From positions 1 to 20,884 of the IMG/VR virus record IMGVR_UViG_3300010885_006581: DNA of 20,884 nucleotides; one strand, given 5' to 3'. The translations under genes were made by a program, and so were the position numbers. The number at the start of each line of letters is the position of its first letter. Position 1 is the stretch's first letter. Source of the stretch: a virus. Of this stretch, positions 2,109-19,393 are shown piece after piece. A model generated the notes under the pieces. It saw only the letters and a list, made by a program, of their open reading frames with translations. It ran no database searches and had not been told where the DNA came from.

Positions 2109-2407
2109 TAGAGGGCTCCTTCTGTGAGGGATTTGATACGGTGCAATTTCTTGTCAAAATTGGGGTCAATCATCTTGTCGTACCGTTGCAAATGCGTACC
2201 ATCGGGCCCAAGTAGCGGCATTTTTGTGCCGTCCCTGCGCTCGTCATATAGATAATCGCCATTGCTTTTAACAGGTACGGAAGGTGTTGGCTTCCAGTTC
2301 TGTGTCCGTGACATCTGCGCCCGAGGGGAGATGTTCAATCCCTTGTTGCGAAGTCTGCACCCATAGTGCTCTTCACAATCAGGTATCTCACACCAATCTC
2401 TAGGCAT
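2108..2407 (-). CDS. Small Cys/His protein between scaffold and MCP
   Basis: A 99-residue basic protein. Its N-terminus has a compact cluster C6-x4-C11-x2-H14-x2-C17 (WCEIPDCEEHYGCRLR) that could bind a metal ion, followed by a Pro-, Arg- and Lys-rich body (SRTQNWKPTPSVPVK, MPLLGPDGTHLQRYDK). I recall similar small proteins with a Cys/His N-terminus and a GCxLRxKG motif next to MCP genes in actinobacterial phages, but no function is known to me. The ATG at 2407 overlaps the scaffold stop by eight bases (ATGCCTAG), and the stop overlaps the MCP start by one base. With no clear Shine-Dalgarno of its own, it is probably translated by coupling. It may be a capsid assembly or minor capsid component; that is inference from position only. 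Confidence 0.8.
   Translation of the reverse strand: MPRDWCEIPDCEEHYGCRLRNKGLNISPRAQMSRTQNWKPTPSVPVKSNGDYLYDERRDGTKMPLLGPDGTHLQRYDKMIDPNFDKKLHRIKSLTEGAL
2116..2120 (-). promoter_or_regulatory. Ribosome binding site of the MCP gene
   Basis: AGGAG on the minus strand sits seven bases before the GTG start codon of the capsid gene. It supports the GTG start at 2108 rather than any internal ATG, and lies within the end of the upstream gene, so capsid translation can initiate strongly despite the coupling. Confidence 0.75.
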
Positions 2408-2882
2408 ATTTGCGCGGGTTGTAGATCACTCGCTCATCTTTATTGACACCTGCGACCAAGATGCGGTCAATTGCAGCAAGCTGCGCATTCTCTCGGGTTG
2501 AACCCTTCTTCAGATCAGTCTGGAATTCCCGCAAAGCGGTGTCCATTGGATCAGGTGTTGGGGTTTCGTATGCGTCCGGTGCGCGTCCCGCAGAAATTGC
2601 ATCTCGAAAGTCTGCTTGTCCTGAAGCTTCTCGAGTTGCTTGCTGACGAGTAGCGGCTTGGAACAATCCAAGCTCTTGCCCTTCAGCCTTAAGCGATTCA
2701 AGATCTTCGCCATCCCATGTCTTGTAAAGCATCGACCCGATACGGGAGTCCGTATCAATGCCGGCCTTCACAAACAGAAGTTGACGCTTCAATTCAGCGT
2801 TCTCACTGAGTGCTGCTTTGCCATCCTTAGCTGCTCGACGCAGGGAAGGAATGTCTTGTTCGTCGTTGTCAATGTTTGACAT
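2400..2882 (-). CDS. Capsid scaffolding protein candidate
   Basis: A 160-residue hydrophilic, mainly helical protein rich in Glu, Asp, Ala and Lys. The N-terminal region (SLRRAAKDGKAALSENAELK) predicts a coiled coil and runs into AGIDTDSRIGSMLYKTWDG, a pattern typical of scaffolding proteins of actinobacterial phages; the middle is flexible and Pro-containing (PTPDPMDT). Scaffold proteins nucleate coat assembly inside the procapsid and then leave. Position two genes upstream of the MCP fits. I chose ATG at 2882, not an upstream TTG at 2960, because AAGGAG lies seven bases before it and the extra 26 residues look non-coding. It is the first gene after a 140-base gap with a hairpin and AT-rich DNA. 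No protease gene is seen nearby. Confidence 0.75.
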   Translation of the reverse strand: MSNIDNDEQDIPSLRRAAKDGKAALSENAELKRQLLFVKAGIDTDSRIGSMLYKTWDGEDLESLKAEGQELGLFQAATRQQATREASGQADFRDAISAGRAPDAYETPTPDPMDTALREFQTDLKKGSTRENAQLAAIDRILVAGVNKDERVIYNPRKYA

Positions 2883-3291: not shown

Positions 3292-4368
3292 TTACGAAGT
3301 TCCGAGTCCAGTTAAACCTTGGTTAGTTCCAACAGCGCCACCTGTTGCGGCACGCGCATTAGCTTGACGCTCTAAGAGTCTGCGTTCAATTGCACTACTA
3401 GCTTGTCCATCGCCAAGCGCAATTGCCTGCATGCCAGTGTCAGTAGACAAATCTTGTGTCTCGCCAAGACTTTCGCTAAACACACCGCTCATGCGAGAAA
3501 CTGTTTGAATATCTTGGATAATGCCAGCTTCAGACTTTGGCAATTGGCCAATAGCTTCTGCTGTGGCTCGAGACATGCCGACTCCAACTTTTGAACCCAT
3601 GCCAGAGGCGTAAGCAGTCAATGACCGCTTATCAAGATCGGACTGCATGTGTTCAGGGTCAAGAAAACTTGCAGCTAATGCACCGGGTGCATCGAGAATG
3701 CCATAAAAATCTTGGTATGCCTTGAGCACAGCAGGATCAGTATCAGCTACACGCGTATATGACTGTCCAAGTCTTTCCCGAACCTCAGGTGCGTTAAGTC
3801 CTCGTCCCATCAAACTTTGAATGTAACTGTTTGAGGTCATGGAGGGTGGCATCCCGGCCGCAATCAAATCAGAACGTACAGCATTTTCGTAGTTCAAAAC
3901 ATCAGTAGCTGTTGGCACTACATGAGCGTGTTCTGGATCAGCTTTATTGTTTTTTCGCACTTGATCAATGACTGGAAAGCGTTGTTGATAGACCGGCGTT
4001 TGTTCAAGGCGAGGCAAGATTGACTCAAATGAAGTGTCGCTTGGGTTATTAATGACTTCTTTCCACAACCACGATTCTGGATCTGGCGTGCCATCTGCAT
4101 TGAGTTTAAACAAACTACCCAAACCAGCATCATCAAGCATTTTTGCTAGATCACTAAAGGTTTGATTGTTAGCCTTTTCCTTAGCAGGATCAGTTGCTAC
4201 TCCTTTGGGCTCCATTGATTTTGCAATAGCACCCCAGCCCAAAGGATCAGCCGGATCAACGGCGCCATTTTTTGAAAAGTCGTCCCACTCTGCCTGCGAA
4301 TGAGGCCCACTAGCAGCAAGCGCATCCCATTGTGCTTGCGAGTAGCCCATGTATCCAGTGTCAGACAT
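3292..4368 (-). CDS. Putative internal virion/structural protein (358 residues)
   Basis: A soluble, helical-looking protein of unknown function. The N-terminus has a short repeated motif with Tyr/Ser-x-Ala/Gln-x-Trp-Asp (GYSQAQWDALAAS and PHSQAEWDDFSKNG). Residues about 72-135 contain LAKMLDDAGLGSL, then WLWKEVINN, then ILPRLEQTPVYQQRFP, a helical module with a Thr-Pro-x-Tyr-x-x-Arg-Phe-Pro end that I recall from large structural proteins of actinobacterial phages; a looser version occurs in the neighbouring 304-residue protein. The C-terminus is Gly/Ala-rich and includes RRLLERQANARAATGG. ATG at 4368 follows the upstream TGA by one base, with GGGAG six bases before it. The role is inferred from the gene cluster: probably a virion component, perhaps ejected with the DNA. 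Confidence 0.7.
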   Translation of the reverse strand: MSDTGYMGYSQAQWDALAASGPHSQAEWDDFSKNGAVDPADPLGWGAIAKSMEPKGVATDPAKEKANNQTFSDLAKMLDDAGLGSLFKLNADGTPDPESWLWKEVINNPSDTSFESILPRLEQTPVYQQRFPVIDQVRKNNKADPEHAHVVPTATDVLNYENAVRSDLIAAGMPPSMTSNSYIQSLMGRGLNAPEVRERLGQSYTRVADTDPAVLKAYQDFYGILDAPGALAASFLDPEHMQSDLDKRSLTAYASGMGSKVGVGMSRATAEAIGQLPKSEAGIIQDIQTVSRMSGVFSESLGETQDLSTDTGMQAIALGDGQASSAIERRLLERQANARAATGGAVGTNQGLTGLGTS

Positions 4369-4369
4369 G

Positions 4370-5284
4370 TCAAGCTCCCATAAACGATCGGATAGCCGAC
4401 GCAGCGGATTGTGTCATTGAACGCGCTGCATTGGTTTTAGCAAAATCTGGATCAGAACGTGCGTTTACCATTACTTCTGATTGCGTAGCAGCACGCACGA
4501 GCCCCGTCTTTGCGTCTACCGTTTGCATCATTGACAGATACTTTGGATCCATCATGCTGATTGCTTCAGGTGGTTTCTCAAGATACGAAGCAATCCTGTC
4601 TCGAGTAGGCATCAAATAGGTTGACATACTGATCCCCTTATCAATGGCCGGCGCAGCCCAAGAGTAATCTTTCCGTGCTTGTTCTTGAAACAAGGCCATC
4701 AATCCATTTTTGTCAAGCTCTCCAGAAGAAACGCGACGAGAATAATTTTGAGCAGAAAGATCTGAGATAGTAAGCAATTGATCTGCAGCCATCTGTTTAA
4801 TCTGTTCAAGATTGCCGGTCAAAGTGCCAGGGCGCAACTTAGTGAAGTCCAAGCCTTGCGTTAAGTAATCGGTGAGTTGTGCTGATTCCCATTTATTAGC
4901 CACGCTTGTCTTTGCTATTGCGGTAACTTGATCATCGCTCAAAGACAAGCCAAGAGTGTCAGACTCATTGCGGATTGCAGCAGCACTAGCTTGAATCTGT
5001 TGAGCTTTTGTTGCAACACTTGCCCCAGTGCCACTACCTTTTGGCGCTGCTCCTTTATTGAGAAGCTCGCTAACTTTTGCTGAGTTGGTTGCTTTAATAT
5101 CTGCAACCATCGCTACTGGATCAAATGTTGGAGCAGATTTGTAACTTACAATTACTGCACGAATGTCCGGATAGATAAGGTTTCCTAGCTGGCTTCCAAA
5201 TCCGTGGTCTATCAGCCATACGCCTAGTGCTGCATCATCAGTTGCCGATGGATCTGGCGTAATTTGCTTTGGCTTTGGTGCCAT
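4370..5284 (-). CDS. Putative internal virion/structural protein (304 residues)
   Basis: A soluble helical protein without recognised catalytic motif. The N-terminal third holds WLIDHGFGSQLGNL and a following Ile-rich helix pair, resembling the module of the 358-residue protein next to it. The middle is a low-complexity Ala/Gln/Lys helix (about residues 80-110), and the C-terminus ends DPDFAKTNAARSMTQSAASA, a Trp/Phe-x-x-Thr-x-x-Ala-type tail I recall from internal or tape-measure-like proteins of actinobacterial phages. The ATG at 5284 overlaps the preceding TAA by one base (TAATG), with GGGAGG nine bases upstream. Like its neighbours it probably belongs to a set of proteins packaged near the portal; this rests on position only. 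Confidence 0.7.
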   Translation of the reverse strand: MAPKPKQITPDPSATDDAALGVWLIDHGFGSQLGNLIYPDIRAVIVSYKSAPTFDPVAMVADIKATNSAKVSELLNKGAAPKGSGTGASVATKAQQIQASAAAIRNESDTLGLSLSDDQVTAIAKTSVANKWESAQLTDYLTQGLDFTKLRPGTLTGNLEQIKQMAADQLLTISDLSAQNYSRRVSSGELDKNGLMALFQEQARKDYSWAAPAIDKGISMSTYLMPTRDRIASYLEKPPEAISMMDPKYLSMMQTVDAKTGLVRAATQSEVMVNARSDPDFAKTNAARSMTQSAASAIRSFMGA

Positions 5285-7164
5285 TATGGTGTGCCTCCCG
5301 ATGCCTTTATAGCGGCTAACGAATCATCAAGTTGTTTGTAAATGCCACCTCCTGATCGTGCTGAAGATAACACTGAATAGATTGCAGACTGATGATCAAA
5401 TGCTTGCAATTTTCCATCTGCACTTGGTGCTGTGCGCGGGTCATAGGCCATCTGCATATCCCAAATTAAATTAGACAAGGCATTTGATTGTTCAGTAGTC
5501 AAATCTGTGTTGCTCAACGATTGAGAAGCCCTATTTCCATACTGAATAATGTCAGCTGGCGAAGTGAGATCAGCACTTGTGGTAACTACTTTTCCAGTGG
5601 CATCGTAATGCATTACATGGCCAGCACTGTTGTAGTTGGGTCTGCCTTGACTTAGGCCCGGAGCTTCAATAAAAGTTGGCAACATTCCAGAACTTGTTAG
5701 TTCAGCTTTATGTCTTACCTCGAGGTCTGTCAATACTTCGTCAACGCCCATGTTCCTCAATGCTGCTTGGCTCAACAACCAATCCCACCCTGCAATGTTT
5801 GCTGGATCATGTGCGTTCCCATCCATTTGTGGAATTAGGTTTTGGGGAAGATTGTCGTACACTCCCGCTTTAATCATTCTGTCCTCCCAATTTTGAACCT
5901 CAGCATTTGATCGGGTATACAAAAATGAAAGAGCGTCATAAACACTGAGCGGCTTTGAGTCAATATTTACAGTAAATTCGTCACCAAAGAATTTCGGCGC
6001 AGCATCTGTGCCAACATTTTGTCTGGCGAAATCAGTTACATCACGCGATTGTGAACCACGAAATGCACGCAACATGCTGTCTCGATTTTGCACAGGACTA
6101 ACGCCAGTATCTGTTTCTAAATTAGCATTTGGATCAAAATCCATAGAATTAGTGCCGCCAGAGGGCGTTGTTGCTGGCGGTGCTGTAGGCGGTGTTGTTG
6201 CTGGCGTTGTGGTTGGCGGCATGGTTGAACTTGTAGCTGTTGTAGTTCCTGTAGGCGACGCAATTGTTGTAGTCGTTGGTGGAACTGTTGAAGTGCTTGT
6301 AGTTGAAGGCGACAAAGTAGTCGTTGTTGGCGCTAATGACGTAGTTGTGATGGGTTCGTTGTTAGTGCTAGTCGTAGGCGTAGTTGAGACTGGTTTATTG
6401 TTTGCCGCTGTGTACTGCCGCACTGCATCTGCTGCTTGTACCGTGGGAGATAGCCCAACAATGCTTGGCTTAGATTTCCAAGCATCCACAGAGTTTTTTA
6501 CATATGCATCAATTTGTTGCGGGGTATAACCGGGGGCATCTGCTGAGCCGCCGTGCAGTAGTTTGGCAATGCTCGTTGCCATTGTTTTAGCCACTTTGTC
6601 TTGCTCTTTAATCAGATAATTGCTCCATGATTTATCTGATATTTCTGTTAGCGCAGGTCGCAAATCCATTTGCGTAGCTACGCCGGCCGTCCACATTGAT
6701 GCGGGAATCCGATCCACAATCTCAAAAGCAGCTTTGCCTATATTGTTTTGGTGCCACGGTGTAGGTGTTGAATCGCCAGTCAACAACAAGGGCATTGAAA
6801 TTAAGCCAAGAACAGGTGCAGCATTTACCACACCCATTGTTACTCGAGCCGCCATTCCAGCATTGGCAGAACCAAAACCTGCACCTCCGGCTCCAAGTTC
6901 TCCTGCCGCTGCTGCTGCTGTTGCGGTTGATGCTGCCGCAACTCCGGTAGCTGCGATACCTGCCATCCCAGCTGCAAACGCAGTGCCATACCAATCATTG
7001 AGTTGCTCACGAGTGGATACGGCTGTTTTGTCATCCATCAATTTGTAAACAAGCGCTGCCATTTCTTCGCGCTTGAGCATTGGTTCACCATTGATTGGCT
7101 GAAGGGCCCTATCAAATTGCAATGGGTTACCGGGCTTTGGAAGTGGCCAATCATTGCGTGACAT
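5284..7164 (-). CDS. Putative ejection-type protein with hydrophobic N-terminus and Thr/Pro linker
   Basis: A 626-residue protein in three parts. Residues about 59-128 are Gly/Ala-rich and hydrophobic (FAAGMAGIAATGVAAAS, later VLGLISMPLLL), able to form glycine-zipper-like membrane helices. Residues about 258-340 are an almost pure Thr/Pro/Ser linker. The C-terminal part, about 341-626, is polar and globular with no recognised motif; a lytic enzyme was looked for and not seen. A plausible role is a virion protein ejected with the DNA that inserts in the host envelope, or a structural protein with a flexible tether. The start abuts the stop of the giant gene (TAA then ATG) with only a weak Shine-Dalgarno, so translation is probably coupled. 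Thr/Pro linkers of this style are common in exported proteins of Actinobacteria. Confidence 0.75.
   Translation of the reverse strand: MSRNDWPLPKPGNPLQFDRALQPINGEPMLKREEMAALVYKLMDDKTAVSTREQLNDWYGTAFAAGMAGIAATGVAAASTATAAAAAGELGAGGAGFGSANAGMAARVTMGVVNAAPVLGLISMPLLLTGDSTPTPWHQNNIGKAAFEIVDRIPASMWTAGVATQMDLRPALTEISDKSWSNYLIKEQDKVAKTMATSIAKLLHGGSADAPGYTPQQIDAYVKNSVDAWKSKPSIVGLSPTVQAADAVRQYTAANNKPVSTTPTTSTNNEPITTTSLAPTTTTLSPSTTSTSTVPPTTTTIASPTGTTTATSSTMPPTTTPATTPPTAPPATTPSGGTNSMDFDPNANLETDTGVSPVQNRDSMLRAFRGSQSRDVTDFARQNVGTDAAPKFFGDEFTVNIDSKPLSVYDALSFLYTRSNAEVQNWEDRMIKAGVYDNLPQNLIPQMDGNAHDPANIAGWDWLLSQAALRNMGVDEVLTDLEVRHKAELTSSGMLPTFIEAPGLSQGRPNYNSAGHVMHYDATGKVVTTSADLTSPADIIQYGNRASQSLSNTDLTTEQSNALSNLIWDMQMAYDPRTAPSADGKLQAFDHQSAIYSVLSSARSGGGIYKQLDDSLAAIKASGGTP
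6145..6393 (-). repeat. Low-complexity Thr/Pro/Ser-coding tract
   Basis: This in-frame tract encodes residues about 258-340 of the 626-residue protein, dominated by short runs such as TTTTLSP, VPPTTTT and MPPTTT. At DNA level it is a degenerate ACA/ACN-CCN repeat that reads GTT/TGG-rich on the plus strand. It forms an extended flexible linker between the hydrophobic N-terminal half and the C-terminal domain, and is prone to length change by slippage. An open frame of 173 codons on the opposite strand is a by-product of this composition. Confidence 0.85.
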
Positions 7165-10100
7165 TTACAATCCCGATTCTGGAATAATGATGGTCAAAAT
7201 AAAACTCTGCATTGCAGGACGCTGAGCTTGCATGTTGTCTAGGTAAAGCTTCCAATTGGCCTTCAACTTGTTGCGCTTAACTGACCCTTCAGTTGTTCGG
7301 TCATTGGAAAGATCATTTAATTTGCTCTCGTATGCTTCAAAACCATTCATAACACGGATCAGATCTGGCATTTGAGGTGGTTGAGGGGCTTGCGGATCCT
7401 TGATGATTAGTCTCATTTCCGTGAGGACATCTGCTCGCCTCTGCTTAGCGTCTGAATTTTGTAGTTGCGCTGTAAAAGTTGGGTGAGCAGCTTTAAATAC
7501 AGCCGACTTGGTGTCCCAATTCTCTTGCAAGATTGCTTGACCTGCTTTGTTGTTGGCAAGTTTGAGCTCTTGCATTTTTGCATCGAACTGATCTTTGGCT
7601 TTAAAGTACATAATGCTTCCCTGCTTAAACAGCATTGCATTTAAAAACTCTTCAGGAGTTCGTTTGTCTCGAAGATCAGAAATGGTTTGCTGATCGTAGG
7701 CATACTGTGAATGTTCTCCTGCACCTGTTGGGTCTTGCGGCAACAGCCAAGGCCCAGCATTTGGAAAGCTCAAAATGTAGTCACTGTTCTGATCAAAGAA
7801 TGCGCCGGCCTCTTTGGTAGCTGGCAATGGGGCACCACTCTTGGAAGTTGATTGACCAACTGTGTATACAATCGGGTTCAAAAGATCACCAAGTTTTGCA
7901 TTGGGAGTAGCTTTAAGGAATGCAATTGTGCCCTCTTCGATGCCAAGGTTCTGCACAAGTGTTGCATAGGACTTAGCTAATACAGAGCGTGGGTCTTTGA
8001 TTGGCGTAAATGGATCAAGATCATTCTGAGCAGATGACATAAGTCCTGGAGGGCCCGGCGTAATCCAGCCAGCTAACGCTTGTGCTATAAACACAATGCG
8101 TGACCAGTTGCGCACGCGATCTAGATATTGTTCTTTTTGATGAGCGGTTGCATTATCTGGCAGTCCATGTCCAGTTGCTTGAAGTTGTGCAAGAGCTGAG
8201 TTTTGGGCTGCCATATACTTGGCATTGCCATCAGGGTTTGAGAACAACGCCTTAAAAGTACTCAGGAACTGCGTTGGGATTATCTGCTCCAACATGCTGT
8301 CCGTTGTGGTGTAGTCGCCCTGTAGCGCTTGTTTGATTGGCGTGAGTTCTGGGGCTAGCGAAGTAAGAAAGCTAAGCGGCAGAGAAACAATTGGGCCAAT
8401 AGCTGGTTTGCCAATTGACGAATGGAAACCGGGCAACAGTTTGTCTGTTGGTGTTTGAAATTCTGCACCGACTACAGACGCTGCTGTTGTGCCAAGATTT
8501 TCCCAACCAAGCGCATTGCCAATTTTTTCCAAAGCATCAATAAGCAAACCCGAACCGGGATAATGAAAGAAGTCTTTACCGTTTTCATCAGTACGAATGA
8601 CACCAGCCGACTTCAATCCCATATAGCCAAGACGCGCTTTCTCAATTGACTGCGGGCTTTCAAGCACTGTTGTAGCCCAGCGTCGAAGGAAGTTCTCTTC
8701 TGCATACTGGAATGGCAAGAAGCCTTTACCGTACTCAGCAAATTGTGTACGCATTTCATGGCTATCCACAAGCGGCATGATGTCATTGATGGCAGCTTCA
8801 GCAGCGTATTCACCAGCAGCATTGTCAATGTGTTGCCAGTTGCGTTCGGCAGCAGCCAAGGCTTCCCAATCTTCATAGGCAAAGTTATGGAATGGCCCGC
8901 CTACACGCAGGATCTGAGTTACTTCATCGTAGTCATCCATCTTCTTTGCTGATCTCATTGCAGCGCCAGCATTGTCCAACACATTTTGATCAGGCAAACT
9001 TGATCGTACAAATGCAAGGTAATCGCCTACATCTGTTGGCGAAACCAGTTTGGCCAGTGCCTGTGGATCTCGAGCCTTGATTGCATTAGCAGAAACCATT
9101 GTCTGAAGGTTTTGCTGACGAACCGCATCTGACCAGTTGCCTGGATTTCCTTGGATAGCAACACGTTGGCGAACAGCATCAAGCATGTTGTTCAAGTCGT
9201 CGCCCTTGTAACTACGCAACCATGACAACGCTTGGTTATCTGTCCAACCTAAAGCGTGCGAGTTGGGATCAACATCGTTAGCCAAGTTGCGAGCGTGTTG
9301 GGACACCGCAGCAATTTCATCTTGCATGCCTTCTGTTTGTCGAGCCATTACATTCAACACCGAGTCACGAATTTCAGGATCAACAAGCCAATCTAGGAAC
9401 TTGATGTTTTGCTGATACCGCTGTTGAAAGAAATGGAATGCAAGAGGCTTGCGCGCTAGAGCATCAATGCCGGGCCCAAGCACTTTGTCAAACCCGTAAT
9501 TGACAAATCGTTCCCAAATGTTTTTCTTATCAACAGGAACAAGAGTTTCAGCAAATGTCCAGTTGGGAACACCATCTCCAACATTTTGCACATGCGCTGC
9601 TTTTGACCGATAGGCACGCACTACATCAGTTGTAGGCACCATCTGCCCTGCTTCAAATGCAAACTGGTCTTTAGGTATAAGCCTGCTCATACCAGTACGA
9701 AGATCATGACCATCTTCAATCATTGGCCCCAACAGCGGCCACATGGCTTCGCTCTTTGCGCCAACCTTTACGTCATGAGGCTTGAAGTAAGCAACGTCAG
9801 CTAGTCGAATTGGCTTTTTGTCTGCTGTAAAGAACTTGGCAGCCTTGTCATTAAAGACATCTGTTTCTTTAACTGCAACCAATTGACCCATGTCGTCTTT
9901 TACATAGACAAGCGGTACTGAACCATTGCCAAATCGCGCTACAAATGATTCTGTAGTTCCTCGAGTATGAACTTGCTGTGCTCTACCAAACATCAGTTCA
10001 GCCCACGACTGAGCTTTATCGGTGAGCTCAGAACTAATTGGTTGCAACTGCACTACACCTTTGTCAGCCCTAAATATTTCAGTTGGGCCGGCATTGCTTT

Positions 10101-13100
10101 TTGATCCAGAGTAATAAGGCTGAATTGCACCATCGCTACTTGTGTATTTACCACGCAGCACATCTCGTTCAACTGATGCGACGTTTACTGGCTCGATGGG
10201 AATATTCATCAATCGTGAATACGTAGCCGTAAGCTCTTCGGCCAATTGAAAATCAGCAAGTAGTGCTTGTGATCCGTTAATAGCACCAGGATTTGCGTCA
10301 TGCACAAGCAGTGCTCGTACTGCCCCCTCGTTGCGTTGCAAAATTCTTGGATCGTCTGATTGGCTAAGGAGCATTTCAAATGTCAATGGCTCACCATGAA
10401 CTGGCCCTTGGGCCATTCTAGGAACTGCAAACAGTTTGATTTGACCTGAAGTAAAACTCCCAGCAGCATCTGATGCACCACCATTAGGATCCATCATCCG
10501 CTGACTAAACATTGCCTTGTCTTGATTGTGTGCGTTCAGTGCTCGAGCACGCAGATCAGGAATAATTTGATCTCCCAAAGCGTGATAGTCCTTAACGAAC
10601 AATGCCTCTGGATCAGGTGCTGGCCGCAACGTTGTGTGTTGCCACCGGATCAATTGAGCTTCCCATTCTTTTGCAGCAAGATCTCTTTTGCTTGTTTGCT
10701 CGCTTACTAAATCATCAAGAGAAGCGTCGTACGCCGCTCGAGCATCAGCTTCTTTTTGCATATCTGCCCATGCTGCATCTTCAGCACGCTTTAAATTTGC
10801 TATTGCGTCAACTTCTGCTTCATTAATTGTCCCTGATGCTTTGTATTGGGCATTTAGCTCTTTGTGATCTCGAATATCCTGAAGTTGTTGTTCAAGACCC
10901 ATTACTTTATTTTGTGCGTGTTCGTGATCACGTAGCAGTTCTGAACCAAAATGTTCCTCAAGAGGTGCCACATAGTCAGCGGTACGCGCCCGAGAATTTA
11001 GATCCTCTAGCGCTGATTGATGTAGTTTTATTTCTGCTTCAATAGCTTTCTTTTCAAAAAAGGTCTGGCGCAGAATGTCCTGATCATCTTGCGGCCAAGT
11101 GGCCACCCAATCCCCAGCAGATTGTCCGGGCTTAGGTGGATTTCGAAAATTATGTTGTCCAAAAAGCCACTCCATCACCGCTTCATGGTCATCAAGTTCT
11201 TTTTGAGCATGATCCAATAAACCATTAGTGCGAGCAAAATCTCCACCAATTGTTGCATGACTAATTTGATCTTCAATTGCTAATTCTTCTGGAGTCATTG
11301 CTCTAACTGCATCGGCTTTTGCTCTAGCCGCAGTTTCTTCCATGAGTGCTACATCAAGTTGTTCTTGCGTTGCACGGATTTTTGCTTCAAAATCTTGAGG
11401 CGTACCTTGGATTACTTCAAGTTCATCTCGTGCTTTGACAACGCGACGATCAAACTCAACTCGCCACGTATCAAGGTCACTTTCTCCTCCCGTATCCGGT
11501 CGCGAGTCATTTAAGTCACGCTGAACTTGTTGTCGTTCTAGATCCCTAAGTTTCGCTTCAGTTTCTCGTAGCGCTTGAGATTGGTTAACAAGGTCTAATT
11601 GTCGTTGATTCAATTCTGATGCGTTGACCCATTTGTCGTCTGTTAACAATTCTGGATGAGCCGCTACTAATCTGCCATTTAATTCGGCAGGCGAAATCTC
11701 TTGGCCATGCGTAGAAACACCAGCGGCAATGACATGATGTCGTGTATCAAGATGTTCAATGCTGTTAATGCGATCTGAATACTGTGCTGCGTCATCCCAC
11801 TTCAATGCAATGAAATTGAGTTCAGCATCCTTTGGAAATTGCTTTGCCATAAAATCGAGAACTTTGCCAACTTCTTCTGTTGACGGGCCAGCCGCACTTT
11901 CACGAATCGTGCTTAGTACCTCACCAAGGCGCTCATTATGTTTCCTGACACCAGCAACGGCAGCTTTCCATGAGCCTGCGTTGCTTGTGTGGGCCACTTC
12001 ATCAACAAGCAGTTTGATGATTGGATCACTATTTGCAACACGTTGATAATGAATGATGTGGTCAACAATCTCAGCATCATCCATTTGGCTTGCGCCCTTA
12101 GTGCGCCATAGCGAGTTGTGAAACACTTCGCCGGCAATTGGATCTTCAAATGGTTGGTACGCGCGGTTGTGTACTGCATTTGCGAAATAAGGATCATCAA
12201 GGCTTAGCCGTCGCTGCTGATGACGCAAAGCAACAAATTGTTCTTCTCGCAATACGCCATCATCACCCTTAACCATGTAGCGCTTGGTGTTGTTTGCGTT
12301 ATAGCCCCTATCAAAGACCCCAGCATTGCTTGCTGAAATCTCACGCATAATTACTGTTTGCCATTTTTTTTGATAAGCGCGTGCAGCATTCACAAGGCCA
12401 TCATCTACGCCACCCATAACCATGCGTCGCCATGAATGCTGGCCACCAAGCATCAGTTGCTCTGCATTGCCTCGACCATTGTTAAGTAGCTTCTCGAGTC
12501 CAGTTGCATCTTTAGATAACATGTACTTAGGAATTCGTTGGCTGTATTCGCCAAGACGCACTGTGCCACCAGTTGCAGCGCCGCTTACACCACCACGCAA
12601 ACTTTCGGTAAGGAATTCTCCATACCGTTCCATGACGTTACGCATTGGTGCAGTCCACTCGGCATGTGCCATTGCATGCCACAAACCTCTGAGATGCGCT
12701 GGAGCCGGGCCCTGCGCAAGCAGAACCTTTTGCCCATCGGTCAAAAGATCAGGTCTAATCTTTAGCCTGCCTGCGTTAAAAAGCATGTTTTGCTCACGCA
12801 ATTCAAGGGCAATTTTGTATTCATCAAAGTGGGCAATGTTCCTTGCACCAAATTCTTGAACAATTGAACCAAACCCACCATGCACAAGCAGGCCAAGAAA
12901 TTCATCGCCTGCTGCTCGCAAAATAAATGCTGGCCTCAACAGCACTGCTGGTTTCCAAATCTTGCTCATACCTGCTTCAAGCATTGGATTGTCAACTAAA
13001 CCAAATGCTTTTGCCCAAGTACCTTGCGCTGCAACTTTTTGCAATTCTTTTAGGTCAGGCATAACCATTTCTGAAGCACTGTCACTTGCCCAAATATGTG

Positions 13101-15300
13101 AGGCTTGGTGCATGCGACCGTCAATCAGCATGATCTCTTCGCCACCCTGACCATAAACATGGAAGAAACGCTCGAGAACTTTCTTAGCAATCTCTTGACC
13201 TTCTTCAGTTGCCTTAAGACCAGTCAATGTCAGAGCATTATCCATATAGCCCGACAGCAACCGCATACGAGCGGCAGGGTTCTCTGCTGCAATAATTGCA
13301 TCTGCCCATGCACGTCGCGTATACGACGGCATGCCAAGAACTGCACCTAATTCAGTAACGCCTTTAATGTCTTTGTAAGCGTTCTTTCCTACAATGCTAA
13401 TTACATGACGACCTGGGGTCATGGTAGTGATTGCATTGAGGACATCAGGAATACTTCGAACACCGGGAATTCGTTGTGTCGTTTCACCTAACTTGCGGCC
13501 GGCATACATAGACCACGGATGAGCTTGGTCATACATCCAAGCGTTAGCAATCATTCCATCGTCAGACAACACGCCATGCACATCGGCAGGAACAAACGTT
13601 TCAAGAATGTCTTTGTTAATCATTTGCCCATCTGCGTGATATGGCGAACGAACTTGTTGTGCATTTGGAAGTGTTGAGTACGTGTTTGCCATTTCATCAA
13701 TGGCTTTGCCAATATGACCTTCTTTTACAATGTCCGACCAACCATTTGTAAACGAGCGGACTCGGCCAAACAAGTCAGTCATCATTTCGCTGCGCTTGCT
13801 TTGACCTGAAAGAATAATGCCGGGACGCGAGGAACTACGCACAGTGCCCATGCCCTGCATCAAAGGCGACAAGTTTGATTTGCTAGTAAACATTTCAACA
13901 AAATCAGCATGACTAAATGTTCCATCAGCAATTCGTCCGCTTGCCCATTCAGCATTTCGATATTCCTGAAATTGCAATACCATGCCACGCATAGTTGGAA
14001 ACTCTTGTCCAAGTTTCATAAAGTCGCCTGCCGCAATATACGCTGCGGCTTTTTCATGAAGTCGTTTTACCGCAGGATTATTGAACGAAATATCCGCAAA
14101 ACGAGCTATTGCTTCAGCCCCATCTGGAACAAGAATGCCTCGTCTGGCAAATCTTAGGGCTTCGCTTGCTTTGCCAAGTAAAAGTGTTGGGTCAAGACTC
14201 ATCACCCAAGCAGCATCTACTGCCCCTGAAACAATGTTGTATTCGGTACTGCCCATTGGCAGACCAATAGTTTCAGCCACATCTCGACCAGCAGATATTT
14301 TGCCATTACGCAGCGCGCTCACTGCTTCTTGGAATGTTGAATCTTGCGCAAGGTTAAGAAGGTTGCTGTAAACCGTTTTATATTCAGGAGTTCCTTCAAC
14401 TGCAATATCAGTTGCAACTGATTTAATAACGTCTAACTGCTTAGTGCCAAACTCTTCGGCATCAGCTGCAGCAAGATCCCGAGCAAAAAGAGCCACGTCA
14501 TAGTCTTGTTCTGCAAGTGCTTTAGCAATTGTGAGTACTCGTGGATCTCCAAGCAGATCATTAGCTTTTGCCACAGCGGAGTTAGCAAATGTTTTGTCAC
14601 CATCCCATGAATTAGCAAATGCGTGATACCAATCATTTGGATGACCAGTTACAACAGCAGCAGTTTCACCGGCGAGTGTTCCTCCCGCAAGGGCTCCAGC
14701 AGCTACTGCACCAAATACAGCAAGCGAACCACCACCTGTAATTGGTGCAAGTAACGCTGCAGCAGTTCCTCCTACAGCCATACCAGTCATGGCTGCTGCT
14801 TGTTCCCAGCTATTCATTGTTCGAAGAGTGCGATACAGATGAGCGGGCTGATCTGATGCCCAAGTCAATGCATGCAAAGTTGGTCGGATAGCAGGGCCGG
14901 CTACATAATCCACTGCATTTGCAATGGGCTGCAGTATTTTCCCAGCCACAGTTCCTACGCCTGATAAGGCTTTTTCAAAATTAGATTTTGCAGCACCGGG
15001 AGGTGAATACCCCGAAGCTGATAGTGCAAGGCGTTCTGGGGTTCCAAGTGTTGCAACAATTCCTCGTTGAGCAGCAGGATCTAATTTAGACAAGTTGTCA
15101 GCCAAATTTTGAGCGGTAACTTGCCCATATAGAGCGCCAGCATGAGAAATTAATTGCACTGTTGGCGTACTCGATGTAGCTAAAGCAAGTACGCCAGCCG
15201 GATCACTTGCCATGTAGGGATTTTGATGGACAATTGCACGGACGCGATTGCCTACATCAATGGAATTGCCAAGATCATCAACGGGATCAATGTTGCTCAT
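7165..15300 (-). CDS. Giant 2711-residue putative virion/ejection protein
   Basis: The largest gene in the window, one uninterrupted frame. Visible parts: a soluble N-terminus; residues about 162-217 Gly/Ala-rich and hydrophobic (MTGMAVGGTAAALLAP, AVFGAVAAGALAGG), possibly membrane-active; around residue 782 a striking WKPAVLLRPAFILRAAGDEF stretch; about 1225-1555 highly charged coiled coil (LRETEAKLRDLERQQ, IRATQEQLDVALMEETAA); a mixed region to about 2280; and a C-terminus with Pro/Gly hydrophobic segments (AIGPIVSLPLSFL, AGWITPGPPG) before a charged helical end. Lytic transglycosylase, peptidase, ADP-ribosyltransferase and single-subunit RNA polymerase motifs were sought and not found. The start overlaps the upstream stop (ATGA) with no good Shine-Dalgarno, so it is coupled to the portal transcript. 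Its size and place suggest a virion protein injected with the genome, comparable in style to giant polyvalent or internal phage proteins; a tape measure is the main alternative. Confidence 0.8.
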   Translation of the reverse strand: MSNIDPVDDLGNSIDVGNRVRAIVHQNPYMASDPAGVLALATSSTPTVQLISHAGALYGQVTAQNLADNLSKLDPAAQRGIVATLGTPERLALSASGYSPPGAAKSNFEKALSGVGTVAGKILQPIANAVDYVAGPAIRPTLHALTWASDQPAHLYRTLRTMNSWEQAAAMTGMAVGGTAAALLAPITGGGSLAVFGAVAAGALAGGTLAGETAAVVTGHPNDWYHAFANSWDGDKTFANSAVAKANDLLGDPRVLTIAKALAEQDYDVALFARDLAAADAEEFGTKQLDVIKSVATDIAVEGTPEYKTVYSNLLNLAQDSTFQEAVSALRNGKISAGRDVAETIGLPMGSTEYNIVSGAVDAAWVMSLDPTLLLGKASEALRFARRGILVPDGAEAIARFADISFNNPAVKRLHEKAAAYIAAGDFMKLGQEFPTMRGMVLQFQEYRNAEWASGRIADGTFSHADFVEMFTSKSNLSPLMQGMGTVRSSSRPGIILSGQSKRSEMMTDLFGRVRSFTNGWSDIVKEGHIGKAIDEMANTYSTLPNAQQVRSPYHADGQMINKDILETFVPADVHGVLSDDGMIANAWMYDQAHPWSMYAGRKLGETTQRIPGVRSIPDVLNAITTMTPGRHVISIVGKNAYKDIKGVTELGAVLGMPSYTRRAWADAIIAAENPAARMRLLSGYMDNALTLTGLKATEEGQEIAKKVLERFFHVYGQGGEEIMLIDGRMHQASHIWASDSASEMVMPDLKELQKVAAQGTWAKAFGLVDNPMLEAGMSKIWKPAVLLRPAFILRAAGDEFLGLLVHGGFGSIVQEFGARNIAHFDEYKIALELREQNMLFNAGRLKIRPDLLTDGQKVLLAQGPAPAHLRGLWHAMAHAEWTAPMRNVMERYGEFLTESLRGGVSGAATGGTVRLGEYSQRIPKYMLSKDATGLEKLLNNGRGNAEQLMLGGQHSWRRMVMGGVDDGLVNAARAYQKKWQTVIMREISASNAGVFDRGYNANNTKRYMVKGDDGVLREEQFVALRHQQRRLSLDDPYFANAVHNRAYQPFEDPIAGEVFHNSLWRTKGASQMDDAEIVDHIIHYQRVANSDPIIKLLVDEVAHTSNAGSWKAAVAGVRKHNERLGEVLSTIRESAAGPSTEEVGKVLDFMAKQFPKDAELNFIALKWDDAAQYSDRINSIEHLDTRHHVIAAGVSTHGQEISPAELNGRLVAAHPELLTDDKWVNASELNQRQLDLVNQSQALRETEAKLRDLERQQVQRDLNDSRPDTGGESDLDTWRVEFDRRVVKARDELEVIQGTPQDFEAKIRATQEQLDVALMEETAARAKADAVRAMTPEELAIEDQISHATIGGDFARTNGLLDHAQKELDDHEAVMEWLFGQHNFRNPPKPGQSAGDWVATWPQDDQDILRQTFFEKKAIEAEIKLHQSALEDLNSRARTADYVAPLEEHFGSELLRDHEHAQNKVMGLEQQLQDIRDHKELNAQYKASGTINEAEVDAIANLKRAEDAAWADMQKEADARAAYDASLDDLVSEQTSKRDLAAKEWEAQLIRWQHTTLRPAPDPEALFVKDYHALGDQIIPDLRARALNAHNQDKAMFSQRMMDPNGGASDAAGSFTSGQIKLFAVPRMAQGPVHGEPLTFEMLLSQSDDPRILQRNEGAVRALLVHDANPGAINGSQALLADFQLAEELTATYSRLMNIPIEPVNVASVERDVLRGKYTSSDGAIQPYYSGSKSNAGPTEIFRADKGVVQLQPISSELTDKAQSWAELMFGRAQQVHTRGTTESFVARFGNGSVPLVYVKDDMGQLVAVKETDVFNDKAAKFFTADKKPIRLADVAYFKPHDVKVGAKSEAMWPLLGPMIEDGHDLRTGMSRLIPKDQFAFEAGQMVPTTDVVRAYRSKAAHVQNVGDGVPNWTFAETLVPVDKKNIWERFVNYGFDKVLGPGIDALARKPLAFHFFQQRYQQNIKFLDWLVDPEIRDSVLNVMARQTEGMQDEIAAVSQHARNLANDVDPNSHALGWTDNQALSWLRSYKGDDLNNMLDAVRQRVAIQGNPGNWSDAVRQQNLQTMVSANAIKARDPQALAKLVSPTDVGDYLAFVRSSLPDQNVLDNAGAAMRSAKKMDDYDEVTQILRVGGPFHNFAYEDWEALAAAERNWQHIDNAAGEYAAEAAINDIMPLVDSHEMRTQFAEYGKGFLPFQYAEENFLRRWATTVLESPQSIEKARLGYMGLKSAGVIRTDENGKDFFHYPGSGLLIDALEKIGNALGWENLGTTAASVVGAEFQTPTDKLLPGFHSSIGKPAIGPIVSLPLSFLTSLAPELTPIKQALQGDYTTTDSMLEQIIPTQFLSTFKALFSNPDGNAKYMAAQNSALAQLQATGHGLPDNATAHQKEQYLDRVRNWSRIVFIAQALAGWITPGPPGLMSSAQNDLDPFTPIKDPRSVLAKSYATLVQNLGIEEGTIAFLKATPNAKLGDLLNPIVYTVGQSTSKSGAPLPATKEAGAFFDQNSDYILSFPNAGPWLLPQDPTGAGEHSQYAYDQQTISDLRDKRTPEEFLNAMLFKQGSIMYFKAKDQFDAKMQELKLANNKAGQAILQENWDTKSAVFKAAHPTFTAQLQNSDAKQRRADVLTEMRLIIKDPQAPQPPQMPDLIRVMNGFEAYESKLNDLSNDRTTEGSVKRNKLKANWKLYLDNMQAQRPAMQSFILTIIIPESGL

Positions 15301-15740
15301 ACCAAGCCATTTCGTCGCGCTAGATCAGTAAAAAATGAATCGCCAGTTCGATCGCTCAACAACTGCATTGTTCGTGCTAATGGTGACACGGCAGATGGGC
15401 CCATAACTTCAGGGCCAGCACCGGGGCCAGAAGGGAGTCCTTCCGTTAGGGGACGCGTGGAGGTTCTTGGTAATTGAAACAATCCTGGCCCACCTTGCAT
15501 TGCGGCAGCAGCAGCCATTGGATCTGGCGCAGGTTGTTCAGGCACCCCCGGCGCAGTTTGAGGATGAACCGCAGCAGGCTGAGGCGAGGCAGCACTCGGA
15601 GATGCCTGAACATTTGGGGCAGGTAGTTGTCGTTGCAGATCCATCTGCGCAACACCCATGCCGTATTCTTGACCAGCTACAGCGCCAATAGGCTGCGCAG
15701 GTTGGCCTGTCATTGTCTTTGGTTTAGCGGCACGAGGCAT
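15297..15740 (-). CDS. Pro/Ala/Gln-rich protein between portal and giant gene
   Basis: A 147-residue protein that is mostly disordered: residues 1-110 are rich in Pro, Ala, Gln and Gly (QASPSAASPQPAAVHPQTAP, PDPMAAAAAMQGGPG). Only the last 35 residues look ordered (SPLARTMQLLSDRTGDSFFT, then DLARRNGLV), resembling a short helical docking segment. It starts three bases after the portal stop and overlaps the giant gene by four bases (ATGA). The similar Pro/Gln-rich tail of the portal suggests that the two work together, for example as a flexible tether at the portal vertex. No family is recognised. The frame is credible because it fits exactly between two real genes. Confidence 0.7.
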   Translation of the reverse strand: MPRAAKPKTMTGQPAQPIGAVAGQEYGMGVAQMDLQRQLPAPNVQASPSAASPQPAAVHPQTAPGVPEQPAPDPMAAAAAMQGGPGLFQLPRTSTRPLTEGLPSGPGAGPEVMGPSAVSPLARTMQLLSDRTGDSFFTDLARRNGLV

Positions 15741-15743
15741 GAG

Positions 15744-17609
15744 TTAGACACCTGCCGGTGTTGGCGATGGCTGCGTAGCCGGCTGCTGCATGACGCTCAT
15801 TAGTTTACGCATTCTTGATACATCGCCCGGTACTTCAATCTGCTGCTGCGGCTGGGGCGCAGGAGGCTGCTGCATCATCTCAGGGCCACCGGAGAGGCCC
15901 GGCATGGACTCTGGCGCACCAACTTGACCTTCTTGTGGTGGAGGCGCTTGTGTGGCTTGTAGCTCTCGTGCTGCTTTGTCTGCTTTAGCAACAGCTTTGA
16001 AGATGTCGTCACCTTTAGACATGAAGTCTCGGATCATTACAGCAACCGTCAAAGGCATCTGGCCTTGCGAAAGTTGCTGAAGCATTGACTGCTTGAGTGC
16101 TTCTTCAAACTGTTCCTCATCAACAAGCTGACCTTCCGACTCAGGGTTGTTGATCCAAGGATGTTTGTCACGGAACGTGCGCCTCGAGATAGTGCCAGTA
16201 CCAAGCAGTGATCCAAGGATCTGTGTCTGCTGCGTTACGTCAGCCCCAGCAACTGCATACGAAACAGTGTTGTCGTATATGCCTTCAATATGTACCTCGG
16301 GCGTGAACTCAACAATGCCTTGCGAGCCCGGCCAACCGGAGAACAACGAATACTTCTTGTCGGGCCAGTACGCCTCGTACATGGAAAGGATTGCAGAGTT
16401 GAGATGAGGCATGTATGCCTCAGAAATCTCATGCAGTTCCTGTACTCGTGGGTCTACGGCAATGCCTTCCATTGCTCCAAGAGCTCGGCCTGTGCGTAGG
16501 TTGGAGTAGTTCTCGCCACCTGTTGCTGCAGTTAAGCCAGTTGAAATACGGAAGTTGCGCTCAAGACGGTCAATAACTTGTGATGTGCGCTGGTCAGGGG
16601 TGTTGCGCAACATACCGACTGACTCGATGTCTTGCAGCAAGTTGATGTTGCCTTCGCGCCCATCTTGCCAACGACCACCAATAATCATTGGCTGACCTGA
16701 TTGCCGGCCAATGGCATACATGTCAGGGAAGATTGCTTTCTCCTGAGCCATGATGTCGAGTGCCATCATTTTTGCCTGAAGATCAACATTGCCTACCATT
16801 GAGCCAATGCGTGATGCAATCTTGCCAAGTGACACGTTGGTTGGCACAACAACTGGAATGAAGTCAGTACTGTTTGGGTATACCGGCGATAATTGCATCC
16901 ATGTCCCACGCTGTCCACCAACAGGGTAGTAACTCTGCGTTTGATCAATAACCGGGCCAACAAGACCAAAGACCAACTGATCTTCGTCGTACCACTCCAC
17001 CGTGTCCCACATCATGGTCATGTCAGTAGTTGGGATTGGCCCGCCATTTTCTTGACGCACCTTTGGGAATCGCTTGCGTAGGTCATCAGCTGAGTGACGA
17101 GTCACAAACGCTGCATACCGTGGAGGACGAAGCTGCTCGTGAGCTTGTGGTTCCACAAAAGTGCTGAGTGGATCACGCACTTCAATCTGTGGCATTGATG
17201 TGACGAAGTTGGGGACAACAACAAGCGAACCCGTATGGTAGGCAGCAAGCTGCCGGTAAAACCGACGACGGCCAAGGATCCACTTAGAGTTGTGGTACGT
17301 CGCAGCAATGATCTGCTCACGACGATGGGCATACAACCTTGAGCCTGCACCAGTATCACGGCTTGCTTTGAGCGCAGGGCTTGTGGTTGTCGGTCGAACC
17401 GAACATGCTCGAGTAGCCATTGAGTCAACAGCTTCGCCAATCAATGCTGGTGTAAGTGGTGGCAGAGTGGGCTCAGAGGCAACTGATGGAATAGGGATAA
17501 CCCAATCACCGTCATAACGATCTAGCACCTCACGCATAGCGCGAATAGTTGGCCCTTGCCGACGCTGCATATCCAAAACAATTTGAATAATCTCGTCAAA
17601 TGATCTCAT
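15744..17609 (-). CDS. Portal protein
   Basis: A 621-residue protein immediately after the terminase, the usual portal position and length. Portals form the twelve-subunit ring through which DNA enters and leaves the head. The N-terminus (MRSFDEIIQIVLDMQRRQGP, then REVLDRYDGDW) and the following LTPALIGEAVDSMATRA, the beta-rich wing (residues about 120-270) and the helical stem-like region (FRISTGLTAATGG through RTGRALGAMEGIAVDPRVQE) fit actinophage portal proteins. The last 70 residues are Pro/Gln-rich and probably disordered, reaching into the head or toward the next gene product. The ATG at 17609 overlaps the terminase stop (ATGA) and has GGAG seven bases upstream. Identity rests on position plus sequence style; no single diagnostic motif exists for this family. 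Confidence 0.88.
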   Translation of the reverse strand: MRSFDEIIQIVLDMQRRQGPTIRAMREVLDRYDGDWVIPIPSVASEPTLPPLTPALIGEAVDSMATRACSVRPTTTSPALKASRDTGAGSRLYAHRREQIIAATYHNSKWILGRRRFYRQLAAYHTGSLVVVPNFVTSMPQIEVRDPLSTFVEPQAHEQLRPPRYAAFVTRHSADDLRKRFPKVRQENGGPIPTTDMTMMWDTVEWYDEDQLVFGLVGPVIDQTQSYYPVGGQRGTWMQLSPVYPNSTDFIPVVVPTNVSLGKIASRIGSMVGNVDLQAKMMALDIMAQEKAIFPDMYAIGRQSGQPMIIGGRWQDGREGNINLLQDIESVGMLRNTPDQRTSQVIDRLERNFRISTGLTAATGGENYSNLRTGRALGAMEGIAVDPRVQELHEISEAYMPHLNSAILSMYEAYWPDKKYSLFSGWPGSQGIVEFTPEVHIEGIYDNTVSYAVAGADVTQQTQILGSLLGTGTISRRTFRDKHPWINNPESEGQLVDEEQFEEALKQSMLQQLSQGQMPLTVAVMIRDFMSKGDDIFKAVAKADKAARELQATQAPPPQEGQVGAPESMPGLSGGPEMMQQPPAPQPQQQIEVPGDVSRMRKLMSVMQQPATQPSPTPAGV

Positions 17610-19393
17610 ACTCGTACTCCAATCGGCAGAACCAAGCCTGATCTAGTTCCTGACCAGGGTAATGCTTTAGTTTTCCAGCCATCGAGATTCATTTGGCCAG
17701 CTTCATCTGACTTCCAACGCTGTCTCCAAAGGATCCAGATAAACCATAATGCCATTACCCGGTCTTGTCGCAGCTTTGTGCCTCGTTTGCCCGGCTTCCA
17801 CGCACGAAGTTGCCTGCAGAGTTCTTCCATTTCGTTGCGCGTCGTAGGGTCGTCTGCCCACGGTATGACGATTTCACCACGGAGGAACGATTCGCACATC
17901 GAGGGCACGCCAACATCCTCGTCGTACTTGTTCCAGCCGGTGAGATGCTCACGCATCGCAAATCCATAATGGCGTTGCATATCGAGCAGACGTTCATCGC
18001 GTGCAAGTCCCTTTTGAAAGTTCATTGTTTCAATAACAACATCAGAAACTCTGCCAGTGAGATTGCATGAAGAGACAACATGGTTGAGTTCTTGCATGAT
18101 CTGCTCGTTAGTCCGCAGTCCTGCCTGCTCACGAATGCGACGAATGATCAACTTGCCCTTTGGCGACACTTCGCAAGCAATAACGCAGTTTTGCCCGCCC
18201 AATGCAGGGTCAAGACCAATGTAAACAATGTGGCCTTGAGGGATTTCATGCTCTAAAGAGATCAACGGGTCTTTGCATTTGTCGATCATGTCGTCAGAGA
18301 ACGTACGGTTTAGTGGGTTAGCGCCTGGGTTCTGCATGTAGTTGCGATCCCATGCGTCTTGGCCGACCTTGCGGCGCTGACGATCTAGCTGATCCAAGTT
18401 GTAGCGCTCAGGCCACAAGGCTTCCTGCTCACCAGTGATGGCATTGGTTGAAATGGCCTTGAACTTGACCACTTTGAGGATGTCATGCAGGTCAGGATCG
18501 TTAGCAAGGCGTTCGTAGAAGTCATCTTCACCCACACGAGTGCCGGCAATTGTGGTGATGCCATGCTCACCCGGTCGAGAGAGTGCATCTTGTCGAAACC
18601 ACTCTTCAATCTTGTCGGTTTGGGTATACGTTTTTGTTGATTGAACGTCATCCACATGCAAGTGATCGGTACGAGTAGACACAATTGAGGATTTCCAGCC
18701 CAACGCAATCATGGAATAGTCACGCTCGTCTTGCGTGTCTTTCTTTTTGACGTTGAAATAGCCGGCACCCCAAGGCTGTGCTTGTTTGTTGTCCTTGCCT
18801 TGACCAGTGTCAGGCTTGAATGGGCCCCATTTTTCAACGTAATAGGGGTATGGCCCGGCTGGTTCCATGCGATGTTTGATTCGCCCAATGATCTTTTGGG
18901 CAATACGCAAGTTCTCAGATGCTACGGAAAGGCGTTTCTCGGGGAATCGTGCCAGTGTTTCCGATGCGTAGTTCTCATACGTTGTGGTCTTACCATGCTC
19001 AGGTGGCCACAACGCCATAAGGATCCCACCGGGAGGAACCTGCTCGAGCAGATTGATGTACTCGAGTTGGAACCATGCGTACTCCATGCCAAAATAGGTC
19101 TTGGCAAAGTCGGCATGAGTCCCAACAATGTCAGGCCCATTGTCGGACGCGTGGACGCGAGCAATATCCACCTTGGCGGCAAACTTCTTATCAGTCTGCC
19201 GCCACTTCTTGTAAGTGCCATGAGCACTTGATACTTCAGGGTGAGCTAATGCTTGGTCAATTGAGTCGCCCGCAGCAATGCGTTTAATAAACCACGCTTT
19301 GCGTTCCTGACTTTGCAGGCTGCGTGCTACTTGAGCCTTCTCAATTGGCTTTAAGGTTTGACCAATTTCGTTCACGAGTCCTTGATTACCCAT
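17606..19393 (-). CDS. terL: Terminase large subunit (packaging ATPase-nuclease)
   Basis: A 595-residue motor that pumps DNA through the portal and cuts it. ATPase part: Walker A WPPEHGKTT (residues about 129-137), Walker B HLHVDD (about 244-249), coupling motif TIAGTR (about 281-286). Nuclease part with RNase H fold: acidic residues in IGLDPALGG (Asp about 395), VVIETMNFQ (Glu about 455) and LRQDRVMAL (Asp about 544). All the expected motifs are in order and spacing is normal. The N-terminal 90 residues look like a helix-turn-helix type extension (SIDQALAHPEVSSAHGTYKK), often seen when no separate small subunit has been recognised. ATG at 19393 overlaps the previous stop by one base (TAATG), and lacks a clear Shine-Dalgarno, so it depends on coupling. 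No small terminase gene is visible in the window. Confidence 0.96.
   Translation of the reverse strand: MGNQGLVNEIGQTLKPIEKAQVARSLQSQERKAWFIKRIAAGDSIDQALAHPEVSSAHGTYKKWRQTDKKFAAKVDIARVHASDNGPDIVGTHADFAKTYFGMEYAWFQLEYINLLEQVPPGGILMALWPPEHGKTTTYENYASETLARFPEKRLSVASENLRIAQKIIGRIKHRMEPAGPYPYYVEKWGPFKPDTGQGKDNKQAQPWGAGYFNVKKKDTQDERDYSMIALGWKSSIVSTRTDHLHVDDVQSTKTYTQTDKIEEWFRQDALSRPGEHGITTIAGTRVGEDDFYERLANDPDLHDILKVVKFKAISTNAITGEQEALWPERYNLDQLDRQRRKVGQDAWDRNYMQNPGANPLNRTFSDDMIDKCKDPLISLEHEIPQGHIVYIGLDPALGGQNCVIACEVSPKGKLIIRRIREQAGLRTNEQIMQELNHVVSSCNLTGRVSDVVIETMNFQKGLARDERLLDMQRHYGFAMREHLTGWNKYDEDVGVPSMCESFLRGEIVIPWADDPTTRNEMEELCRQLRAWKPGKRGTKLRQDRVMALWFIWILWRQRWKSDEAGQMNLDGWKTKALPWSGTRSGLVLPIGVRV

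Follow-up and report, generated by a model that had tools for sequence, protein, structure and literature searches.

A giant protein encoded between portal and scaffold genes as a candidate DNA-ejection protein of a short-tailed phage

Why would a phage devote 8.1 kb, between the genes for its portal and its scaffold, to a single protein of 2711 residues? The question is raised by a fragment of an uncultured virus, whose whole length of 20,884 bp is here called the window. For short-tailed phages, most of what is understood about the machines of DNA entry comes from phages that infect Gram-negative bacteria; in these machines, internal ejection proteins that sit above or around the portal exit first and build a conduit (PMC8954989, PMC12633501). 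We ask whether the giant, P0001, is best understood as a component of such a machine.

The giant gene and its neighbours

Read along the coding strand, the window carries a partial repeat-rich protein, a 112-aa protein, the terminase large subunit (TerL), the portal, P0005, P0001, P0002, P0003 and P0004. After P0004 comes a gap of about 330-410 bp, followed by the scaffold-like P0012, P0011 (99 aa), a capsid gene of the SU10_MCP family and P0013. The features needed below are these, with E-values from the comparison with Streptomyces phage Immanuel3 coming from a small test set:

17606..19393, minus strand: terminase large subunit P0007 (phrog_38, E 5e-43; matches Streptomyces podophage terminases)
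15744..17609, minus strand: portal P0006 (weak SPP1_portal match; Immanuel3 portal profile match, E 4e-28)
15297..15740, minus strand: P0005, 147 aa, Pro/Ala-rich (homologous to Immanuel3 gp07, E 1e-8)
7165..15300, minus strand: giant protein P0001, 2711 aa, with a conserved N part, a variable middle and a conserved C part
12001..15300, minus strand: conserved N part of P0001 (aa 1-1100), holding the Gly/Ala stretch 162-217 and WKPAVLLRPAFILR at 782-795
9901..12000, minus strand: variable middle of P0001 (about aa 1101-1800), in which residues 1225-1555 are charged and low in Gly/Pro
7168..9918, minus strand: conserved C part of P0001 (aa 1795-2711), with motifs PFxYAEENFLxRW and YPGS; modelled as mostly helical at low confidence
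5284..7164, minus strand: P0002, 626 aa (weak profile match to Immanuel3 gp10, E 5e-6)
4370..5284, minus strand: P0003, 304 aa (phrog_6654; matches the C-terminal domain of Streptomyces phage gp11 and gp12, E 2e-35 and 8e-33)
3292..4368, minus strand: P0004, 358 aa (phrog_8424; homologous to Immanuel3 gp13, E 2e-44)
2400..2882, minus strand: scaffold-like P0012, named scaffold by position only
924..2108, minus strand: major capsid protein of the SU10_MCP family (PF17236, E 7.5e-52)

In the stretch from TerL to P0004, each ORF abuts the next or overlaps it by just a few bases, and these coordinates suggest that the genes form one translationally coupled operon. A sequence-only reading of this DNA had placed the giant between portal and scaffold; it does lie between them, without being directly adjacent to either, since the 147-aa gene precedes it and three conserved genes (626, 304 and 358 aa) separate it from the scaffold-like gene. 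The latter likely starts with the ATG at 2882, the mechanical ORF opening with a TTG at 2960. Scanning the window for Rfam families and tRNAs gave no hit, and a search for promoters in the gap ahead of the scaffold gene returned nothing above chance. The partial upstream ORF (19779-20882) contains repeats of about 20 residues (IAGTSATTLGNATSST...) and resembles a repeat-rich fibre or decoration protein.

The single uninterrupted frame described earlier is confirmed, as it opens with ATG and contains no internal stop over its 2711 residues. Across the whole giant, dN/dS among three close relatives is 0.10-0.17, indicating strong purifying selection. Because the relatives keep one long frame at such ratios, P0001 is, judged by its pattern of substitution, a real and functional gene. 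The Gly/Ala-rich hydrophobic stretch reported at about 162-217 is present (G+A 50% vs 20% in the entire protein) and is the sole long, strongly hydrophobic segment in P0001. The motif reported near residue 782, WKPAVLLRPAFILR, begins exactly at that residue, spans 782-795 and includes the family-invariant W782 and R795. The region 1225-1555, earlier called a charged coiled coil, is indeed charged (DEKR 33% vs 20-26% elsewhere) and poor in Gly/Pro (just 6%), but a continuous coiled coil is not borne out: a crude heptad scan finds a short stretch only, at about 1304-1336, and "charged, probably helical" is the safer label.

Searches with P0001 as a single sequence return nothing. Neither Pfam nor PHROGs yields a family above noise or a recognised enzymatic domain, in agreement with the earlier remark that no enzymatic motif could be recognised, and tblastn against phages and plasmids as well as a pattern scan of viral contigs returned nothing. 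The literature yielded no experimental study of the giant family, nor virion proteomics for any of its members.

A family of giants and its cultured relatives

Relatives were reached through the terminase first, which gave 14 related uncultured phage contigs, and then through an alignment of the family. In those terminase-found contigs that reach far enough, the giant comes after terminase, portal and P0005. An alignment of ten giants was turned into a family profile, which retrieved 32 loci; removal of near-identical copies left 30 entries, among them the window itself, several fragmentary members and an antisense ORF (locus L008), and we take the family to comprise about 25-30 uncultured phages. 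Complete members measure 2158-3289 aa. A portal homologue lies just upstream of the giant in all 29 loci fetched with the giant's own family profile (L044-L072), and a terminase is present in all but one of them, the exception being cut by the contig end. Homologues of P0003 and P0004 follow downstream wherever the locus is long enough, except in one that ends near there, and an SU10-type capsid gene likewise lies downstream in loci of sufficient length.

Conservation is unevenly spread along the giants. It peaks in the N part at 751-800, around the WKPAVLLR motif, and in the C part at 2151-2250, where PFxYAEENFLxRW (2196-2208) and YPGS (about 2247-2250) are found. The middle is poorly conserved, varies in content and ranges from about 330 to 1140 residues among relatives. 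AF2 models of residues 1-1100 (25 sequences; pLDDT 62, pTM 0.33) and 1795-2711 (22 sequences; pLDDT 65, pTM 0.31) are mostly helical and of low confidence. Searches of the PDB, whether by fold with these two models or by sequence for the giant family, gave no credible match. Five BFVD fold matches with low E-values were set aside as carrying no functional information: the proteins matched are unnamed ones from phages, and no TM-score exceeds 0.2.

Several observations on individual relatives can be recorded here. In L068 (6156-15089) the giant is divided between two ORFs, one of 2462 aa and one of 483 aa, through either a contig frameshift or a real split. A 193-aa protein in L018 (2129-2710, minus strand) shows a short inner match to phrog_16823 (tape measure) together with a metallo-endopeptidase family match, and is probably a peptidase domain rather than a tape measure. 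A scan of genome collections hit two short MAG contigs from different phyla and was rejected as giving no reliable host; a PF18897 recombination-directionality-factor-like protein in one relative is at most a hint towards Actinobacteria.

The link to cultured phages comes from profile comparison. The family profile matches gp09 of six Streptomyces phages of the Beephvirinae at 22-42 bits, shuffled and reversed decoys reaching at most 5.8. With hhalign, a stretch of P0001 of about 190 residues that starts at aa 629 and contains the WKPAVLLR region aligns with gp09 465-687 (probability 96, E 1e-9), and in a profile-profile comparison the C part of the giants falls on gp09 1025-1572 (E 9e-5, probability 60). 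In the unannotated phage ct2KA10, a 1764-aa ORF matches the family profile at 194 bits; it was the sole match when consensus N and C parts were compared with annotated phages. The gp09 proteins belong to phrog_10618, which is listed as of unknown function, and when the ten giants were compared with PHROGs, the same phrog_10618 independently gave the best match (one member, E 3e-4). By these profiles, P0001 belongs, if distantly, to the family of gp09 (phrog_10618).

The neighbourhood agrees in order as well. Portal, P0005, P0002 (weakly), P0003 and P0004 have colinear homologues in Immanuel3, namely its portal, gp07, gp10, gp11/gp12 and gp13. Like the giant, gp09 of Immanuel3, Manuel and FlowerPower occupies the same slot in a module that runs TerL, portal, small genes, giant, gp10, gp11, gp12, gp13. 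Unlike P0001, the gp09 proteins of Beephvirinae measure 1332-1648 aa and lack most of the middle, although at 1,648 aa gp09 is still by far the longest protein in the complete Immanuel3 genome. Two of its neighbours carry peptidoglycan-directed domains: gp11 has an N-terminal NLPC_P60 domain (E 4e-30) and gp12 an N-terminal SLT domain (E 2.5e-5), each fused to a P0003-type domain and annotated in the record as peptidase and glycosylase, respectively. Fusions of this kind would be expected in virion proteins whose task is to open the peptidoglycan layer as the phage enters. Pfam found no hydrolase domain in the window's own cassette, and the hydrolase argument draws on the domains of the Streptomyces relatives.

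The capsid genes tell a different story from the rest of the module. The window encodes a capsid protein of the SU10_MCP family, whereas those of Immanuel3 and ct2KA10 belong to Phage_capsid_3, and profiles of P0010 and P0012 found no capsid or scaffold match in these two phages. Co-occurrence of the giant with the SU10-type capsid, which had been proposed as a check, is seen in uncultured relatives whose loci are long enough, and not in Immanuel3 and ct2KA10. With capsid genes from two Pfam families on the two sides, what is conserved is the unit of packaging and ejection and not the shell; and since this module is kept while the capsid family differs, the packaging-ejection and shell modules appear to have evolved separately. 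The boundary between them is the gap before the scaffold gene. At the corresponding boundary between ejection cassette and scaffold-capsid genes, the Streptomyces relatives (Immanuel3, L002 16040-17988; L074-L077) carry about 20 tRNA genes, where the window has only the gap.

What the giant may do

We consider that P0001 is probably a large internal virion protein (an ejection or "pilot" protein) that forms the large subunit of the DNA-ejection apparatus of a short-tailed phage. That it is an injected virion protein is the best-supported reading because it is encoded in the portal operon and has a remote podophage homologue with a hydrolase-bearing neighbour, and because podovirus morphology is seen in the group of that homologue: under the microscope, Abafar (Manuelvirus, Beephvirinae) has the form of a podovirus, with a very short tail (PMC11536984). 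The role of conduit subunit fits because the protein is giant, probably helical, encoded in the portal operon, and conserved alongside a family to which peptidoglycan hydrolases are fused in other phages. In the N4-like phage DEV, the characterised channel-forming ejection proteins are described as entirely alpha-helical (PMC12633501). P0001 itself lies among virion genes, the short tail being seen solely in a relative of its remote homologue, and the presence of just one clearly hydrophobic region counts against the ejection reading, as do the low confidence of the models, the missing match to the ejection proteins of T7, N4 and SU10 or to the PDB, the different placement of the ejection genes in those three phages, and the reliance of the hydrolase argument on the Streptomyces relatives. 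The sequence-only reading had proposed that the protein is packaged into virions at the portal, is injected with the genome and acts as a channel, a DNA escort or a multi-function effector. It is probably right, in broad terms, in its first two options; the third finds no support in P0001, the one weak lead being in the middle region of some relatives.

A possible sequence of events can be outlined, in which packaging, ejection, membrane insertion, channel formation and stoichiometry are all what we infer for P0001. A few copies would be packed in the head near the portal and would exit via portal and tail, either before the DNA or along with it. P0001 would then insert in the host membrane via the Gly/Ala-rich hydrophobic segment near 162-217, a plausible membrane-insertion site that resembles the N part of P0002. 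Together with P0002, P0003 and P0004, it would form a transient DNA-entry conduit of which P0001 is the large subunit, and its variable middle could serve as a spacer or as an exchangeable, host-facing part. P0002, the proposed second protein of this ejection cassette, has a Gly/Ala-rich hydrophobic segment in its N part, followed, at about aa 255-335, by a low-complexity linker rich in Thr, Pro and Ser; similarity among its homologues in relatives is weak, weaker than for the other cassette proteins.

The middle of the giants invites other readings. An optional domain of about 165 aa occurs there in 8-9 of about 25 giants and is absent from P0001; leave-one-out profiles recover 6 of the 7 aligned members. 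Examples are located as follows:

L069 13670-14194: optional domain
L063 7997-8527: optional domain
L058 7106-7585: optional domain
L048 13973-14440: optional domain
L056 10975-11475: optional domain
L061 9219-9713: optional domain

Its pattern, Y-R-G, then S-x-S, then E-I/F, resembles that of ADP-ribosyltransferases (R-S-E); the putative catalytic Arg is Met in two members, and comparison of the domain profile with PDB and Pfam found no ADP-ribosyltransferase. On one reading, which we hold to be unlikely, the giant serves as a scaffold for ejection that has a payload bay with exchangeable contents: its N and C parts do the entry while the middle is swapped and in some phages carries an ADP-ribosyltransferase-like or other effector for delivery into the host. 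If true, a single polypeptide would combine ejection protein and injected effector, and would do so in a lineage whose relatives are podophages of Streptomyces, a Gram-positive host. The position between portal and scaffold is the usual place of MuF-type proteins, which speaks for a separate reading, namely a packaged polyvalent or MuF-type effector whose main purpose, once injected, is to act on host targets through an exchangeable enzymatic middle rather than to form a conduit. Packaged polyvalent proteins are known for portal-terminase phages (PMC5512222), and the variable length and content of the middle, with its ADP-ribosyltransferase-reminiscent insert, would suit them. Yet ten members gave no trustworthy enzymatic match in Pfam or PHROGs and no MuF or known effector domain, the optional domain has the defects just described and is missing from P0001, and it is the N and C parts, rather than the middle, that are best conserved, all of which makes this reading quite unlikely.

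Length, helical content and a hydrophobic segment are all typical of the tape-measure protein of a long-tailed phage, and several tape measures appear among weak, non-significant BFVD fold matches (E about 0.5-1); but neither P0001 nor the members tested matched a PHROG tape measure, so that the match which had been named in advance as refuting the injected virion protein did not occur. Moreover, the gene precedes the capsid gene, length among relatives runs from 2158 to 3289 aa, and the reading becomes very unlikely because one member of the Beephvirinae, the short-tailed Abafar, is a podovirus by microscopy. The size of P0001 is comparable to that of the N4 virion RNA polymerase (gp50, about 3,500 aa), and a stretch of 40 residues resembles RPC2, a subunit of RNA polymerase III (E 0.01-0.05); we discarded this as spurious-looking, and with no match to a solved RNA polymerase beyond those 40 residues, no Pfam polymerase match and none when the family profile was compared with a segment of N4 gp50 (first 2342 aa), a packaged polymerase or other replication or transcription enzyme is hardly to be expected. 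A non-virion assembly factor, such as a giant chaperone for portal or procapsid assembly, would suit a gene near the portal and upstream of the scaffold, and no proteomics excluding it was found; conservation together with the hydrolase-fused family, independent of capsid family, makes it decidedly improbable.

The DNA-ejection reading, if right, makes the giant family a testable candidate for the ejection apparatus in phages of a monoderm host. The family also links an unannotated giant and its three partners to cultured Streptomyces podophages, and shows a packaging-ejection module that persists in phages whose capsid genes fall into different families.

Comparison with known ejection and giant proteins

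Profiles of the giant and its partner families were compared with T7 gp13-16, N4 gp50 (first 2342 aa) to gp52 and SU10 gp19-24, and none scored above decoys. Gene order differs too: the ejection genes of T7, SU10 and N4 are all downstream of the capsid gene, whereas the giant's gene comes before it. The likeness to T7 gp14-gp15-gp16 lies in a proposed large internal virion protein beside smaller partners; gp16 (1318 aa) has its own transglycosylase domain (PMC8954989), the T7 genes follow both capsid and tail genes, and homology is not detectable. N4 likewise encodes a giant, gp50, with the smaller gp51 and gp52, and this giant is packaged and ejected (PMC12633501); P0001, in contrast, lacks a polymerase domain and shows no homology to the part of gp50 tested, whose gene is downstream of the capsid gene. 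SU10 is a podovirus of the same capsid family as the window, and its 163-kDa gp24, of unknown function, is present in virions by mass spectrometry (PMC4281155); the gp24 gene, however, is far downstream of the capsid gene, and neither gp24 nor gp20/gp22 shows detectable homology.

Among other giants, Microbacterium phage Akoni (cluster EK2), a podovirus of Actinobacteria, encodes an unannotated protein of 4,487 aa beside its portal gene (PMC8281081), although upstream of it; it was rejected as a homologue, with no family-profile match above decoys. Polyvalent phage proteins are large, are encoded among virion genes and are thought to be injected (PMC5512222), but P0001 has no recognised enzymatic or polyvalent-associated domain. 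The earlier impression of an unusual and poorly described system is therefore apt for the placement of the gene and for the unannotated family, and less so for size, as giant ejection proteins such as the N4 polymerase were already known. Altogether, P0001 may work like T7 gp16 or N4 gp50 by analogy, while not being a detectable member of their families, and is best described as a large, previously unannotated version of the ejection apparatus of podoviruses, one that goes with more than a single capsid family.
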